Below are positions 24,771-32,344 of a stretch of DNA of 64,000 nt, in pieces; the first letter of the stretch is position 1, and each line of letters opens with the position of its first letter. The DNA lies in IMG/VR virus record IMGVR_UViG_3300027972_000007, positions 106,171-170,170 of that record; one strand, 5' to 3'. The notes below the pieces were generated by a model. That model made no database searches and had not been told where the DNA came from. It saw nothing but the letters and a program-made list of their open reading frames with translations. This DNA is from a virus. The translations under genes and the position numbers were made by a program.

Positions 24771-25319
24771 TTATTCTTTTATTAAACTAAAAAACTCTGC
24801 TCTTGTATTATTATTAGTTTGAAAATTTCCCAATAATTTACTTGTTTTCATATACGAATTATGATTTCTAACTCCGCGCATTTTCATACATAAATGTTGT
24901 GCTTCAACTACTACTCCAACGCCTAATGGTTTTAATTCATCCATTATAGCTTCTGCTATTTGTGTAGTCATATTTTCTTGTATCTGTAATCTTCTTGCAA
25001 AAATTTCAACTAATCGTGCTAATTTTGACAATCCAACAACTTTTCCTTGTGGTAAATAACCAATATGACATTTTCCAAAAAAAGGTAACATGTGATGTTC
25101 ACACATTGAATAAAAATCAATATTATTACAAAATACCATTTCATCATTAGATGAATTAAATCTCGTACTTAAAATATCTTTTGGGTTCTGTTTATATCCC
25201 GAGAATAATTCGCTATATGATTTAATTACTCTATATGGCGTTTTAACTAAACCTTCTCTATTAGGGTCTTCGCCAATATATTCTAATAATTTTATAATAT
25301 GTTCTTCTGCGTTATTCAT
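24771..25319 (-). CDS. folE: GTP cyclohydrolase I
   Basis: A 182-residue protein of typical FolE length, with [15 protein letters not shown], the zinc-site [28 protein letters not shown], and HLCMKMRGV (second zinc Cys). It converts GTP to dihydroneopterin triphosphate, the first step to folates and to 7-deazaguanines. With queD, queE and dpdA in the same region it most likely feeds preQ0 synthesis for DNA modification. A moderate ribosome binding site (AAAGG) precedes the ATG. Confidence 0.95.
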
Positions 25320-25331
25320 AATTATTCACCT

Positions 25332-25793
25332 TTAAATCATAAAATCTTCAAAATATTTTGTAATATATTTTTTAAAATCTTTTTTATTTACGCTATTCCA
25401 TTTGTCATAATATTGAACGATTCTATCAATATTTTCATCTATATCAATATTTTCATTTTCCCACGGAAACACCACCCAACCATATTTTTTGTGATCTTCA
25501 TTATTTTGTTTATCTATTAAAGCTTCAAATTTTGCATTAGGATATTTTTCTACCCATTTTTTCTTTGTATTGCCGCTGTCAACAATATCGTCGACGATCA
25601 AAATCTTATCGATTTCGTCGTGATTATAATATAAATCTAAATCATGGGAAATAGTTGGAAGATTTTTAAAACAACTGGCAAGAATCATTCCGCCTTTTGG
25701 AATACCAAAAACTAAATAGTCTCGGTATTCAATTTCTATTTTATAAACCCAATCAATTACTTCATCCCAAGTAACACAATATCTATTCTTCAA
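25332..25793 (-). CDS. Phosphoribosyltransferase
   Basis: About 153 residues. KILIVDDIVDSGNT is the PRPP-binding loop of type I phosphoribosyltransferases; an earlier VFGIPKGGMILAS is the typical upstream loop, and WVVFPWE the base-binding end. There is no ATG near the beginning: TTG at 25793 has AGGAG seven bases upstream and is preferred. It overlaps the end of queD. Likely a hypoxanthine/guanine or related base salvage enzyme, or a 7-deazaguanine-related transferase. Confidence 0.78.
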   Translation of the reverse strand: MKNRYCVTWDEVIDWVYKIEIEYRDYLVFGIPKGGMILASCFKNLPTISHDLDLYYNHDEIDKILIVDDIVDSGNTKKKWVEKYPNAKFEALIDKQNNEDHKKYGWVVFPWENENIDIDENIDRIVQYYDKWNSVNKKDFKKYITKYFEDFMI

Positions 25794-26271
25794 TTTTACT
25801 CTCCTCAAATGAAATAACATCAAATGCGTCTGCTTCACTTGTTCTCGCTGAAGAATTTTCAGTTTCCCATACTTCAGCATATGAAACAAATATCGTTCTT
25901 TTAGATTTATCATATTTAAAATCTGTTTTTAGCCAATCATCTGCTTTTTTAAATAATGCTCGGGCCATATTCTCTGCAGTTGGATTTCTTACCATTATAA
26001 TAACACGTTTAAAATTATTTTTAAAGAATTCTTTAACTGAATTTTCTTCTTTACTCCATAAAACAGTAGAATGATCGAATTTATCAACAAAATCTTTGAT
26101 GGGTTTTAATAATTTAAAATCAATTAACATGCCGTTTGATTGGTCGACATCACCATCTAAACCAATAACCCACTTATATGAATGACCGTGAATATTGAAT
26201 TTACATCTAGTAGAAAATGAATTTCTTACTATGTGAGCAGTTTCTGATTTGAAAATCTTTTGAATAGACAA
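25783..26271 (-). CDS. queD: 6-carboxytetrahydropterin synthase
   Basis: A 162-residue protein with SETAHIVRNSFSTRC, NIHGHSYKW (two zinc His and the catalytic region), NGMLIDFKLLK, FDHSTVLW and a late EVWET Glu. These are the conserved residues of QueD, which makes 6-carboxy-tetrahydropterin from the FolE product. The start is a TTG with AAAGGA seven bases upstream. It is the second step of the preQ0 pathway. Confidence 0.88.
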   Translation of the reverse strand: MSIQKIFKSETAHIVRNSFSTRCKFNIHGHSYKWVIGLDGDVDQSNGMLIDFKLLKPIKDFVDKFDHSTVLWSKEENSVKEFFKNNFKRVIIMVRNPTAENMARALFKKADDWLKTDFKYDKSKRTIFVSYAEVWETENSSARTSEADAFDVISFEESKIEE

Positions 26272-26297
26272 ACTAAAATCCTTTCACTTGTTCAATT

Positions 26298-26330
26298 ATA
26301 AAAATAATAGATTTAAAAATAAAAACAAGA
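26298..26330 (-). repeat. Dispersed AT-rich motif, copy 3
   Basis: The minus-strand sequence starts CTTGTTTTTATTTTTAAATC and continues TATTATTTTTATAAT. It lies between the 709-residue gene and queD, oriented toward queD. Related copies are at 28774-28804, 30093-30125, 34591-34620, 34938-34969 and 42571-42600. It may be a promoter of this phage. Confidence 0.6.
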
Positions 26331-26343
26331 GTTATTTTTTAAT

Positions 26344-26351
26344 TATTTATA
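26344..26351 (-). promoter_or_regulatory. T4-type late promoter box TATAAATA
   Basis: An exact TATAAATA on the minus strand, about 73 bases upstream of the queD start and just after the stop of the 709-residue gene. Plausible late promoter; the dispersed motif lies between it and queD. Confidence 0.4.
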
Positions 26352-26353
26352 AT

Positions 26354-28483
26354 CTAAAGGTATTCTGCCATAATTTTATCTATATCAAAAGGCGTTATTC
26401 CTTTATCTACAGAAAAAATAATATCTGCTTTTTCCTTATCATTAACTATTTTTCCTCTACCTTTTGCATGCATATTAAATAAATCATACAAATTAGGTTT
26501 AACTAAATTAACCATTGCTTTACCCATTAATGCGGCACCTTTTGTATTCGTTTCATAACAATTAAAATTCGGACTCTTTTTTAATGCTAAATCTGTCCAT
26601 ATCATTTTTCTTTCAACTAAATCAAATATAAATGGTATGCAAATAGTAGTATCTGCAGATATATCAATTTTATCTTGTACGGTTTTTGGTTCAAATATTT
26701 CGCCTGAATTTGGCTTCTGTCTTATCATCCAACCCATAAAACATTCAGGTATAGTATTATACGGTTGATTTGTATAACAATATAAATTTGCCATTACATA
26801 ACGTATATCAGAATCAATAGCAGAAACTATATCAATATCAATAAATTCACAAGCCCCATTTGGAGCATTAGTTATATCGCCACTATGATATCCTCTAAAT
26901 GATGCACTTTTCAAATTCGTCCAACTAATAAATTCTTTGCTTTTCCAATTCTCATTAAATGTTGCTGCAGTTAAATCAATATCTACCCTATCAAACCCGC
27001 GCCAAATATAACCATTTTTGCTAATATTCTTCCACCAAAGAAAAAATCTTAACGTATTCCCTTCTGGAATATTTATTTTACTACCTCTCACAATAGTTCT
27101 TAATGCTTTGCTTGCAGATCTTTGTGAAAATGGCACTAAAAATTCTTTCAATTTTTCATCAATATATACATTTCCTAATTCAGATAAATTACTAAATTTT
27201 TTAATTAATGTTTTTTCACAAATAGAAACAACATCTTTGCATGTTTCTTCGTTTATTTTCTTTAAATTATTTTCTTCTAAATGACCTTTTGCAACATTCC
27301 CTTTAGGGAAGAATATTCTTTGTTCTGTATTTTTATTTCTATTTTTAAAATGCGAATGAACTTGAAGCAAAACTGGCGTTGAAATTTTGTTCGCAATATC
27401 TTCAAAATTTTCGAGAACTGAACTTCTATTACTGGTTAAACGCAATAAATGATCTAATTTACGAGCAAAATCGCCGGGTCTATTTTTCAAAATATTACTG
27501 GCTTCTTTAACATTATGATCTTTTAGTAATTTTTCAACTTTTGAATTAAATGTTTCAAATGGCTTATTATTTCTCAAAATATCAAAAGATTCATATACAT
27601 CTAAAAATTTGTTCTTATAATCACCAGGATGCAAATATTCTCCTAATTTAATCCATTGTGTTTTAAATCGTAGCATATCTTCAGTAATATTTCTGCATCC
27701 TTCTAATAGTGTTAATAATAATCTTCTTTCTTTTCTGCTAAATTTCTTAAATTTAGTATTTTTAGCTAAACTAATATCACCGTCAGACAATGAAACTGCA
27801 AATCTTAATACGTCAGTTGCTGTTTTAAAATATTTACATAAATATAATTCTCCGTGTTGCACATATTTAAGTAATAAATTGGCTAACAGAGCAACATTTT
27901 CTTTTAATGGTATACTTTCTGGCAAAAAATCTTTAATGTTTTTGCTATTTTCTTTTATAAACCATTCAACATCATTTTTATCGGTTTCAGACAGTGATGT
28001 TTTTGACGATAACAAATTAATACAAATTTGAAAAAATTCTTGTTCTGTTCCTAAATCAATAACTTTCAATTCTATATCATCCCGCAATCCTTCTCTTTTT
28101 TCCTTCTTATATTTTGGAAGAACTGATTGAATTTTTCCATCAGTAATATCAGAACACCATGTTGTTATATAATGGATATATGCATTTAAATATAATTCTA
28201 TTTCGCTCATTTCCATTACTTGTGTTGGGAAATTAGAATACATTGGATTGAATTTTTTATTTGCGCCAATATTTTTTCTTAAATTAGCAATTAAATTATT
28301 ATAGAAATTTGTTGCTTCAGAAGTTGAAAGTGTTCTTACTCTATTTAATAATTTTCTGGAAAAAACATAACCGAGTGATTCGATATTTTTCAATATAGTT
28401 GCTAAATATTGATTTGTTAATTTGAAATTACCTTTTTCAACAATAACTTTATTCTTTCTTCTCAACAAAATTAAATCATTCAT
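26354..28483 (-). CDS. Large TerD-associated (MXAN_6230/SCO0854-like) protein
   Basis: A 709-residue protein with an all-helical N-terminal two thirds and a C-terminal TerD-like beta domain: RVDIDLTAATFNENW near residue 515, FRGYHSGDITNAPNGACEFIDIDI near 550, then YCYTNQPYNTIPECFMGWM. These motifs recall a bacterial family found with tellurite-resistance (Ter) genes. The role in phage is unknown; stress or envelope functions have been proposed for Ter proteins. It is preceded on the minus strand by the triple hairpin array. Confidence 0.6.
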   Translation of the reverse strand: MNDLILLRRKNKVIVEKGNFKLTNQYLATILKNIESLGYVFSRKLLNRVRTLSTSEATNFYNNLIANLRKNIGANKKFNPMYSNFPTQVMEMSEIELYLNAYIHYITTWCSDITDGKIQSVLPKYKKEKREGLRDDIELKVIDLGTEQEFFQICINLLSSKTSLSETDKNDVEWFIKENSKNIKDFLPESIPLKENVALLANLLLKYVQHGELYLCKYFKTATDVLRFAVSLSDGDISLAKNTKFKKFSRKERRLLLTLLEGCRNITEDMLRFKTQWIKLGEYLHPGDYKNKFLDVYESFDILRNNKPFETFNSKVEKLLKDHNVKEASNILKNRPGDFARKLDHLLRLTSNRSSVLENFEDIANKISTPVLLQVHSHFKNRNKNTEQRIFFPKGNVAKGHLEENNLKKINEETCKDVVSICEKTLIKKFSNLSELGNVYIDEKLKEFLVPFSQRSASKALRTIVRGSKINIPEGNTLRFFLWWKNISKNGYIWRGFDRVDIDLTAATFNENWKSKEFISWTNLKSASFRGYHSGDITNAPNGACEFIDIDIVSAIDSDIRYVMANLYCYTNQPYNTIPECFMGWMIRQKPNSGEIFEPKTVQDKIDISADTTICIPFIFDLVERKMIWTDLALKKSPNFNCYETNTKGAALMGKAMVNLVKPNLYDLFNMHAKGRGKIVNDKEKADIIFSVDKGITPFDIDKIMAEYL

Positions 28484-28508
28484 ATCAAACTCCTCACAAA
28501 TAAAAAAT

Positions 28509-28734
28509 AAGGAAATTGGCAGTTCTAATTTCGTGGCAGCGCCGAAGCGCTTAAGATTTAGAAGGAAGAACCACCATAGCCTTTAAAGTTTATAAAAAAG
28601 AGGAAATTAACAAATCTAAGTTATAATAATAGTAGAGAAGGAAGATTTGTTATGGCCTCTATTATTTTCAGTAGGAAATAGATAAAACTATTAATACCAA
28701 ATTATTTATAGAAGGAAGTTTCATCATGGCCTAC
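28509..28734 (-). ncRNA. Tandem array of three covarying hairpin RNA elements
   Basis: Three units lie at 28509-28583, 28600-28659 and 28671-28734. On the minus strand each has outer stem AAGG/CCTT, GAGG/CCTC or TAGG/CCTA; then CYAT; then a 9-bp inner stem whose sequence differs completely between units yet pairs in all three (GGTGGTTCT/AGAACTGCC, AACAAATCT/AGATTTGTT, GATGAAACT/AGTTTTATC); a conserved TCCTTCT at the start of the apical loop; and WATTT before the closing strand. Unit 28509-28583 also has an extra AGCGC-TTCG-GCGCT hairpin in its loop. It forms most of the 5' leader of the 709-residue gene. No known RNA family is recognised. Confidence 0.7.
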
Positions 28735-28773
28735 TTTATCTAACAAAAAGGAGAAAACAAATAACACCACATA

Positions 28774-28804
28774 TAAAATAATTGATTTATTTTTAAAAAA
28801 CAAG
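28774..28804 (-). repeat. Dispersed AT-rich motif, copy 2
   Basis: The minus-strand motif (CTTGTTTTTTAAAAATAAAT, then CAATTATTTTA) abuts the stop codon of the 28805-29119 gene and precedes the hairpin array. Confidence 0.6.
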
Positions 28805-29119
28805 TTATTTTTCAATTCTTTTTAATAATTCTTCTTTTCCCATAATGCCCATTTTTTCAATTAACTTATTAATATCAAATTTTCCATTCCAAAAAGATTC
28901 TACAAGAAAATCATAATCAACTTCTTCTTTTTCGTTGCTAAATAAATCTATTTCGTCTAATGCTAATTTTAAATCATCTTCATCAAAAAGAGATAAAATT
29001 TCACCAATTTCCATTTTACCTTCAAGATATTTAAAAATCTCTTCATTATCAATTTGTTCTAAAACTTCAATTGGATCTATATCTACTGTCGTGGAAATAT
29101 CTACATCGACGTTTCTCAT
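28805..29119 (-). CDS. Acidic hypothetical protein
   Basis: A 104-residue strongly acidic, helical protein (IDPIEVLEQIDNEEIFKYL, LSLFDEDDLKLALDEI). I recall helical phage proteins with a similar EEIxxYL pattern but cannot assign a function. Its ATG shares a base with the stop of queE upstream. Confidence 0.55.
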   Translation of the reverse strand: MRNVDVDISTTVDIDPIEVLEQIDNEEIFKYLEGKMEIGEILSLFDEDDLKLALDEIDLFSNEKEEVDYDFLVESFWNGKFDINKLIEKMGIMGKEELLKRIEK

Positions 29120-29805
29120 TATACACCCCTTTCATTATCAAATAATAAACAGTGCAATCTACCAGAAATGTTCCAGCCATTATTTATGATTATTTTAAAA
29201 TGATCTCTTAATCTATCTAATATTTCGGCTCCCATTACTCCAACAGGTTGCATATATACTAATGCATCAGGAATAAAATATTTTTTTTGTAATTCTCTCA
29301 CATAATTAAAATCTTTATCGTCATAAAACAAAAATTTAACTATATAATTTAAACCTTGTTGATGACACTGTTGAATAAATATTGGATCTGTATTATGAAT
29401 TTTCTCTTGTTGAAAATTACCTTTCGGCGAAATATTAAATACCGTATTTCTATATGTCTTCAAATTTTTCAATGTTACTGAATCTATTATTTGAGTGCCG
29501 TTCGTTTCTATCTCATAAAATTTATTTAAATTTTCTACATAAGGAAACCACGAAAAAATTTCAAGTATTTTTTGGTAATTATTTTTAAGTAACGGCTCGC
29601 CGCCAGTAAATACTATATTAACTGAATCTTTTATTAACTTTTTCAATTTAACATCTGATATATCTTTAATATTTCCTTTTAATGCATAATTAGAATCACA
29701 ATTTTCACAAGACAAATTGCACGAAGGAAATCTAATAAATAATGAATTAGTGCCTTGATTGATTCCTTCTCCCTGAATTGATTTAAAACATTCTATTATT
29801 TTCAT
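29119..29805 (-). CDS. queE: 7-carboxy-7-deazaguanine synthase (radical SAM)
   Basis: A 228-residue QueE. ECFKSIQGEGINQG lies at the start, then the iron-sulfur cluster motif CNLSCENCD (CxxxCxxC), VFTGGEPLL, EIETNGT, FNISPKG and a C-terminal RLHCLLF. It converts carboxytetrahydropterin to 7-carboxy-7-deazaguanine using SAM. The start at 29805 (ATGA overlap with the upstream gene) is preferred over a longer frame. With FolE, QueD and DpdA it completes most of the pathway; QueC is not in the window. Confidence 0.9.
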   Translation of the reverse strand: MKIIECFKSIQGEGINQGTNSLFIRFPSCNLSCENCDSNYALKGNIKDISDVKLKKLIKDSVNIVFTGGEPLLKNNYQKILEIFSWFPYVENLNKFYEIETNGTQIIDSVTLKNLKTYRNTVFNISPKGNFQQEKIHNTDPIFIQQCHQQGLNYIVKFLFYDDKDFNYVRELQKKYFIPDALVYMQPVGVMGAEILDRLRDHFKIIINNGWNISGRLHCLLFDNERGV

Positions 29806-30089
29806 TTTATTCTTATATCTTTTATTATTAAAGGTTTTTCTGGTAACGGTTGCCAATGCGTTGCTTTTTCTTCATACCAATTTCCATATTTTTTAAATTC
29901 ATTACGCTCACATGCATGATTACACGCATAATTTTTGAATATTTTTTTTCTAAAATCAAAAAGTGCTTCCCTCGGTTTATCTCCGCATTCTTCATCTTCT
30001 TTAGTATCGAAAATTAAAACTGGAACTCCATATTTCCCGGCATAAGGAGTTTTTCTATTTGGTAATATTTTTACGCTTATCCAACTCAT
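29802..30089 (-). CDS. DUF551-like protein
   Basis: A 95-residue protein starting MSWISVKILPNRKTPYAGKY and containing ATHWQPLPEKP near the end, the two ends of the DUF551 domain common in phages. An insert with CNHAC is present in between. Function is unknown. No ribosome binding site precedes the ATG; the dispersed AT-rich motif ends only three bases upstream. Confidence 0.7.
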   Translation of the reverse strand: MSWISVKILPNRKTPYAGKYGVPVLIFDTKEDEECGDKPREALFDFRKKIFKNYACNHACERNEFKKYGNWYEEKATHWQPLPEKPLIIKDIRIK

Positions 30090-31357: not shown

Positions 31358-32344
31358 TTAATAATTTTTTATTAATATTTTATCGCCTTTTTTTAATTTT
31401 TCGACTTTTTTCTTACCTTTTGGTGTAAAAATATTATGATTTTTTGTAATTCCTTCATGAAAACAAATATTTCCAAAATTATCTTCAATCGTATATAACT
31501 TTTTTGTATTTTTAATCACATTTTTAAATATTTTAGTTACTTTTTTATTTTCTATTTGTTTTGTCTTAAAATTATATGATTGAACTATATCACCCAATTT
31601 GACATTCTTTATTTTTTTAATGGTATCATCGCCCATTCTAACTGAAGAATCAGGATGAAAACACTCATCAATCAATAATCCTGCAAATCTTTGAAAAAAT
31701 CCAGATTCTTTATTTTGCAGAGTTTGCCATGTACAAATTAAAACTGGTTTTCGTTCGTCGTACTCTTGTCCACTAAATAGAGTACAGACATATTTATCTG
31801 CATCAACCCATCCATAATCTTTAAAGTCTGATAACATTTGAAGCGTAAGATTGGTAGTAGGAACTACCAATAAAACTTGTTTTTGCAATAATAAAAGGTA
31901 TCTAATTAAAACAAAAAGAACTAGACTTTTACCTGAACCCGTAGCACTTACTACCACCCCACGTTTATTCTTTACGGCTATTTTAAATGATTCATCCTGG
32001 TAATCTCTTAACTTAAATTTACTATCTGCAAATAATCTTCGTAAAAATTCATCTAATGTTGAAATCGATATATCATTTCTTATTTCATTAATATCAAATT
32101 TGGTTTCATATTGATATTCATTTTTAATACAAAATCTTTGAAATTCTTTATAAAATCCTATCGGCAACAAAGAATTTTTCATGTCATAAAACGATACTTT
32201 TCCATCCCATTTTTTCATTTTAACAAGAGGATTGAACCACCTATTTTCAATATAGCAAGAAAAATAATCCTTAATTTCTCTTTCTATATCATTATCAGTA
32301 TCCAATTTTAGAAAAATTTCATTATATTTGTATATGTTTATCAA
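31358..32344 (-). CDS. uvsW: UvsW helicase, N-terminal half with N-part of split intein
   Basis: Residues 1-227 are the first RecA-like domain of UvsW: KLRDYQ (Q-like motif), ATGSGKS (Walker A, 134-140), VVPTTNLTLQM, and LLIDE at 223-227, where the DExH box begins. At residue 228 the sequence changes to CFHPDSSVRMGDDTIKKI (intein block A) and GITKNHNIF (block B), and it ends with a stop 101 residues into the intein. The rest of the intein and the second helicase domain are encoded at 58091-59056 on the other strand. Protein trans-splicing should give a ~509-residue helicase. It lies next to uvsY, as in T4. Confidence 0.88.
   Translation of the reverse strand: MINIYKYNEIFLKLDTDNDIEREIKDYFSCYIENRWFNPLVKMKKWDGKVSFYDMKNSLLPIGFYKEFQRFCIKNEYQYETKFDINEIRNDISISTLDEFLRRLFADSKFKLRDYQDESFKIAVKNKRGVVVSATGSGKSLVLFVLIRYLLLLQKQVLLVVPTTNLTLQMLSDFKDYGWVDADKYVCTLFSGQEYDERKPVLICTWQTLQNKESGFFQRFAGLLIDECFHPDSSVRMGDDTIKKIKNVKLGDIVQSYNFKTKQIENKKVTKIFKNVIKNTKKLYTIEDNFGNICFHEGITKNHNIFTPKGKKKVEKLKKGDKILIKNY

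Follow-up and report, generated by a model that had tools for sequence, protein, structure and literature searches.

A family of structured RNAs encoded beside a TerD-domain protein gene in phages and bacteria, with a proposed Y-RNA-like role

In this study, three tandem RNA units were analysed in a 64,000-nucleotide (nt) stretch of the IMG/VR virus record IMGVR_UViG_3300027972_000007 (positions 106,171 to 170,170 of the record; "the window" below means this whole stretch), where they lie on the minus strand directly before the gene of a TerD-domain protein. The units are members of a large family of structured noncoding RNAs that is outside Rfam and apparently undescribed; its fold is established by covariation, and over 100 loci were found, in phages, in Streptomyces and Paenibacillus and in other bacteria. 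The units are probably bound by the protein encoded next to them, and we favour, with fair though far from full confidence, the reading that these small noncoding RNAs and the protein, of the MXAN_6230/SCO0854 family, form a Y-RNA-like ribonucleoprotein (RNP) in a response to RNA damage. The units, with their 9-base-pair (bp) stems and conserved boxes, are located as follows (R1, the covariance model of the unit).

28669..28736, minus strand: RNA unit 1, the 5'-most (R1, 53 bits, E 4e-12; fold z -2.6)
28597..28662, minus strand: RNA unit 2 (R1, 58.5 bits, E 1e-13; fold z -4.2)
28506..28586, minus strand: RNA unit 3 (R1, 52 bits, E 8e-12; fold z -3.4)
28717..28725, minus strand: 5' arm of the 9-bp stem of unit 1, GATGAAACT (partner arm AGTTTTATC at 28681-28689)
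28643..28651, minus strand: 5' arm of the 9-bp stem of unit 2, AACAAATCT (partner arm AGATTTGTT at 28609-28617)
28567..28575, minus strand: 5' arm of the 9-bp stem of unit 3, GGTGGTTCT (partner arm AGAACTGCC at 28518-28526)
28710..28716, minus strand: conserved loop box TCCTTCT of unit 1
28636..28642, minus strand: conserved loop box TCCTTCT of unit 2
28560..28566, minus strand: conserved loop box TCCTTCT of unit 3

Unit 1 is built, in order, of the outer stem, GGCCAT, the 9-bp stem, TCCTTCT, a 20-nt loop, the 9-bp stem, TATTTCC and the outer stem; units 2 and 3 follow the same plan with loops of 18 nt and 33 nt, the latter with a GCGC-TTCG-GCGC hairpin. The outer stems of the three are TAGG/CCTA, GAGG/CCTC and AAGG/CCTT. 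When folded singly, all three outperformed their dinucleotide shuffles (z -2.6 to -4.2). The pattern GGCYATN7CTTCCTTCT has three exact matches in the window, all in the units, and no other without mismatches, and R1 recovered the three units with nothing else convincing within the window. A plus-strand match, freshwater-2 (19 bits, E 1.5), was discarded as a chance match. Three tandem units with 9-bp and outer stems had been described at this place in an earlier, sequence-only reading and are all present as described; its assignment of them, on the minus strand, to the leader of a gene associated with TerD is also right: they lie between the minus-strand open reading frames (ORFs) 29119-28805 and 28483-26354, and some 20 nt separate their end from the start codon of the second ORF. 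No Rfam family reached its curated threshold over the units of the window or of 23 related loci, in agreement with the proposal of a new structured RNA.

In the consensus, an outer stem with a GG/CC closure is followed by CYAU, by nine unconstrained bases (mostly ending in CT) and by TCCTTCT, after which come the variable loop, AG with the complementary bases, R-NYTN-CC and the outer stem again. The constant core is made up of the outer stem, an internal loop (CYA / NYUN), a stem of 9-10 bp whose sequence is free, and the UCCUUCU box. A search of IMG/VR for the partner protein by conserved peptides found one near-identical contig only, so the relatives were gathered through the RNA pattern: a 23-base pattern was searched in IMG/VR and in GTDB genomes (at least 119 stretches each), and a second viral pattern gave 95 stretches. 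Many pattern-only matches (L004, L007 and others) were stemless, that is, chance matches, and were used as a natural control. Among the 393 distinct GGCYAT-N9-TCCTTCT sites in all fetched DNA, 123 had a perfect 9-bp partner and the expected tail, whereas exchange of the 9-mers between sites left a mean of 3.1 (maximum 5). In 81 diverse units, which were chosen for having 8 or more of the 9 inner pairs (the outer stem was not a selection criterion), the paired cells amounted to 91% (shuffles, 59%; slid partners, 39-49%), and the cells with changes on both sides numbered 471 versus 151 in shuffles. Changes on both sides occurred at 9 of the 10 inner pairs, the first pair (U-R) varied on one side, and the outer stem covaried as well. 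The covariation that had been proposed from the three units therefore holds for the family, and homologues with compensatory changes outside the window, a check set beforehand, were found in phages and in bacteria.

The gene that accompanies the units is the following.

26354..28483, minus strand: partner gene, encoding a 709-amino-acid protein with a helical N-terminal domain and a TerD domain

By profile search, the gene is present at 109 of the 129 unit loci. In these 109 loci, unit and gene share a strand in all 178 pairs; the units are only 3' of the gene at 61 loci, only 5' at 41 and on both sides at 7, and the median distance between the gene and the nearest unit is 26 nt (the locus counts contain near-duplicates, and 88 proteins are left once those at least 85% identical are removed). 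A Paenibacillus homologue, for example, directly follows two units, and a distant Streptomyces homologue directly precedes one. Of the 28 protein loci in which no strict unit was seen, 22 had a covariance-model match at E<=0.01, and a protein match was obtained in 12 of the 16 whole records (one just a short piece) from which a unit locus had come without the gene. The RNA search and the protein search selected the identical 8 of 121 genomes (Paenibacillus class), a coincidence of p ~1e-12 on the assumption of independent genomes, which related genomes are not; in two of the eight, an extra unit adjoins a second paralogue. Since every pair is on the strand of the gene, the AGAAGGA site of the plus strand is a mere reverse complement of UCCUUCU, and the ribosome binding site with mini-ORFs suggested for that strand was not borne out. 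An anti-Shine-Dalgarno or sponge role of the box is likewise unsupported, since the sequence UCCUUCU hardly varies between unrelated hosts and goes with a stem of constant length.

Further units were found 9-113 kb from the gene in five phage records (G002, G004, G007, G009 and G015), and tRNA genes are present on the strand of the unit in four of the five distant phage regions read, one of which holds 26. From these distances, and from the position of the distant units mostly in tRNA clusters, the RNA probably acts in trans, and a separately transcribed stable RNA is likely. In this respect, the units would resemble the species 1 and 2 RNAs of phage T4 (rnaC and rnaD), which are small stable phage RNAs near tRNA genes; the T4 tRNA cluster (rnaC/rnaD, L328) had no unit by a strict motif scan, the sole test made.

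The window protein matched NCBIfam NF041916 (MXAN_6230/SCO0854 family RING domain protein) with E 5e-134. The scores of the window, Paenibacillus and Streptomyces proteins (448, 496 and 335 bits) are all below the equivalog cut-off of 600; judged from sequence, the three are clearly related to NF041916. Much of the model is matched by the window protein and its homologues, the window protein being shorter than the family. The window protein is 51% identical to the Paenibacillus homologue. The NF041916 entry, as seen here, makes no mention of an RNA partner, and no mention of SCO0854 was found in the papers searched. The AlphaFold model of the window protein is confident (predicted local distance difference test, pLDDT, 92), and its C-terminus has the TerD fold (Foldseek: 3ibz, E 8e-7; 2kxt, E 3e-6) with conserved D...HSGD residues; Pfam TerD (PF02342) matched 5 of 64 homologues. 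The N-terminal 460 residues, which are helical, matched no solved fold in Foldseek, and a PDB sequence search with the protein gave just a weak TerD match. With the PADLOC defence models, isolated weak matches only (one member each) were obtained among the 64 homologues. The C-terminal TerD fold is common to the partner protein and TerD-dependent stress systems, whereas here it is fused to a long helical domain and travels with an RNA.

In a minority of units, the loop resembles parts of a tRNA. A T-arm is present in 21 of 184 distinct units, and a T-arm followed by a capped 7-bp acceptor stem in 16 of the 184 (the caps are short, e.g. UUCG or GAAA); a D-arm-like stretch comes next after the capped acceptor in at least 11 of those units. 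YrlA (RF02553), the small RNA that accompanies Ro60/Rsr, is one of the Y RNAs of bacteria, a class connected with tRNA damage and the repair of RNA. Its model matched six units with a tRNA module, spread over five loci, with 38-47 bits, short of the gathering threshold of 69 bits (best scores, 47.1 bits in L173, 43.2 and 42.3 bits in L080), and a candidate seventh match was obtained in L006 (33 bits); it had no match in the window. The comparison with Y RNAs is based on PMC7790460, PMC4726728 and general knowledge. As with YrlA, the unit would be a small RNA beside the gene of its putative protein partner on the same strand, and a candidate platform of stem, internal loop and stem, an architecture that shows covariation, carries a variable distal part, which in these few units resembles a permuted tRNA module of T-arm, capped acceptor and D-arm.

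Another likeness to YrlA, seen at some loci, is an RNA-repair context with RtcR and sigma-54. In an alphaproteobacterial metagenome-assembled genome (L188), a full-length unit (49 bits) is located 52 nt after the rtcA of rtcB-rtcA; rtcR is divergent, a sigma-54 site is present, and a search of this genome for the partner protein gave no match. An ORF resembling an IS630-type transposase follows the unit in this rtcBA locus (L188, 5532-6053) and may account for the absent protein gene. In Variovorax (L351), a perfect sigma-54 site (TGGCACGGGCATTGCA) precedes the partner gene, which is oriented divergently from rtcR; two weaker units lie downstream. In Aliikangiella (L358), two units directly follow a near-consensus sigma-54 site (TGGCACGGCACCTGCT, identified by eye), and next come the partner gene and the genes for an RNase_T exonuclease, for two RNA ligases and for an HD/kinase protein. 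In the Rhodococcus phage Weasels2, rtcB is 3 kb downstream of the partner gene. RNA ligase genes are present in 15 of 24 carrier records, including that of the window's virus (a raw count without a background rate). The RNA ligase gene of the window's virus was observed outside the window (G000:C1:103222-103692; PF09414, 49 bits). The rsr-yrlBA-rtcBA operon of Salmonella is turned on by tRNA fragments via RtcR (PMC7790460), and its similar plan suggests, by analogy, the same setting for the units here.

In the Y-RNA-like RNP that we favour, the units would be transcribed with the TerD-protein gene and, in phages, also apart from it, and would be bound by the TerD-domain protein. The constant part (outer stem, CYA/NYUN loop, fixed-length stem and UCCUUCU) would be the protein-binding platform, and the variable loop would serve as an effector module, which in some units takes the form of a capped tRNA mimic in permuted order. 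The RNA may store, gate or tether an RNA-handling protein in response to damaged tRNA or RNA; in phages, the particle would probably protect tRNAs or decoy host anticodon nucleases. This functional step is drawn from analogy and from the few repair loci. A broader form, to which we lean less than to its converse, is that these particles represent a second, Ro60-independent class of Y-RNA-type RNP, found in bacteria and phages, in which the TerD/helical protein employs short tandem RNAs, a part of them permuted tRNA mimics, to sense or counter tRNA cleavage and by which phages guard their tRNAs against the anticodon nucleases of the host. Several observations weigh against the RNP. Linkage to repair genes is confined to a few loci, none of them in Streptomyces or Paenibacillus. 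Most units, which are often several, short and tandem, differ from YrlA in having no tRNA module, including the three of the window (unit 3 has just the UUCG hairpin), and the platform, GGCYAU / RNYUNCC plus UCCUUCU, differs in sequence from the YrlA consensus boxes. The partner protein is unrelated to TROVE by sequence or fold: no similarity to Ro60 was detected with hhalign (probability 0.3%), and Ro60 was absent from the 50 best Foldseek matches of the whole protein or the N-terminal domain. Ro60 as the partner was rejected by these comparisons and by hidden Markov model search, Pfam TROVE (PF05731) matching 0 of the 64 homologues; TROVE genes do exist in 2 of the 24 carrier records and in 7 of the 121 genomes sampled, either on a different contig or at a large distance. 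As the partner is not Ro60 and the YrlA scores are below the threshold, the units are not established as Y RNAs. A large RNA family is added beyond Rfam, and an uncharacterised protein family named by locus tags only gains a specific, probable RNA partner. If the RNP is real, the Y-RNA idea exists with more than one protein, large phages carry a Y-RNA-like system within their tRNA clusters, and the role of the tRNA mimics of Y RNAs becomes testable in hosts that are tractable, Paenibacillus and Streptomyces among them.

The strict strand agreement, the 26-nt median distance and the closeness of the window units to the start codon would also be expected if the protein bound the hairpins in the leader or trailer of its own mRNA and so controlled translation or mRNA stability. 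We regard such autoregulation as unlikely to be the explanation, since units occur both 5' and 3' of the gene and, in phages, far from it in tRNA clusters, and since it accounts poorly for the tRNA-like inserts; it may, however, coexist with the RNP role. Rather less probable are processing or permuted-intron elements, in which the hairpin would join cut sites and free the loop as a circular RNA or a mature permuted tRNA: tRNA parts do occur in permuted order within loops, a CCA remnant is found in the linkers of L069 and L041, and 15 of the 24 carrier records have RNA ligase genes, but most loops hold no tRNA, the short acceptor caps would be more readily expected of a capped mimic than of a tRNA under maturation, and neither a ribozyme nor a splice motif of a known kind was recognised. 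A tandem metabolite riboswitch or an RNA thermometer is very improbable. The tandem leaders ahead of a stress-type gene in the window and the conserved internal loop would suit one; the window leader, however, has no terminator-like expression platform, the common partner is a single protein and not a shared metabolic pathway, and the 3' positions and the solitary copies in distant tRNA clusters tell against any leader or riboswitch as the whole story; a riboswitch-like tandem sensor was among the roles suggested in the sequence-only reading. Retrons, integron attC sites and TIGR arrays were provisionally set aside, since the covariation of the variable arms is that of an RNA stem.

Genes of the 7-deazaguanine type flank the system in the window (24771-29856, minus strand), as follows.

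24771-25319, minus strand: GTP cyclohydrolase I
25332-25913, minus strand: phosphoribosyltransferase-like ORF
25783-26271, minus strand: QueD-like PTPS
29119-29856, minus strand: QueE-like radical SAM ORF

Elsewhere in the window (31358-32344, minus strand), a helicase-like ORF runs into an intein N-terminal-like part (CFHPDSSVRMGDDTIKKIKN) and then stops; from its sequence, it is possibly a split intein. Transfer-messenger RNA (tmRNA) genes were observed in unit-carrying phage contigs (L006, 4738-5051; L041, 6028-6373), and that of L041 was also called by ARAGORN, with the tag DENSFALVA.
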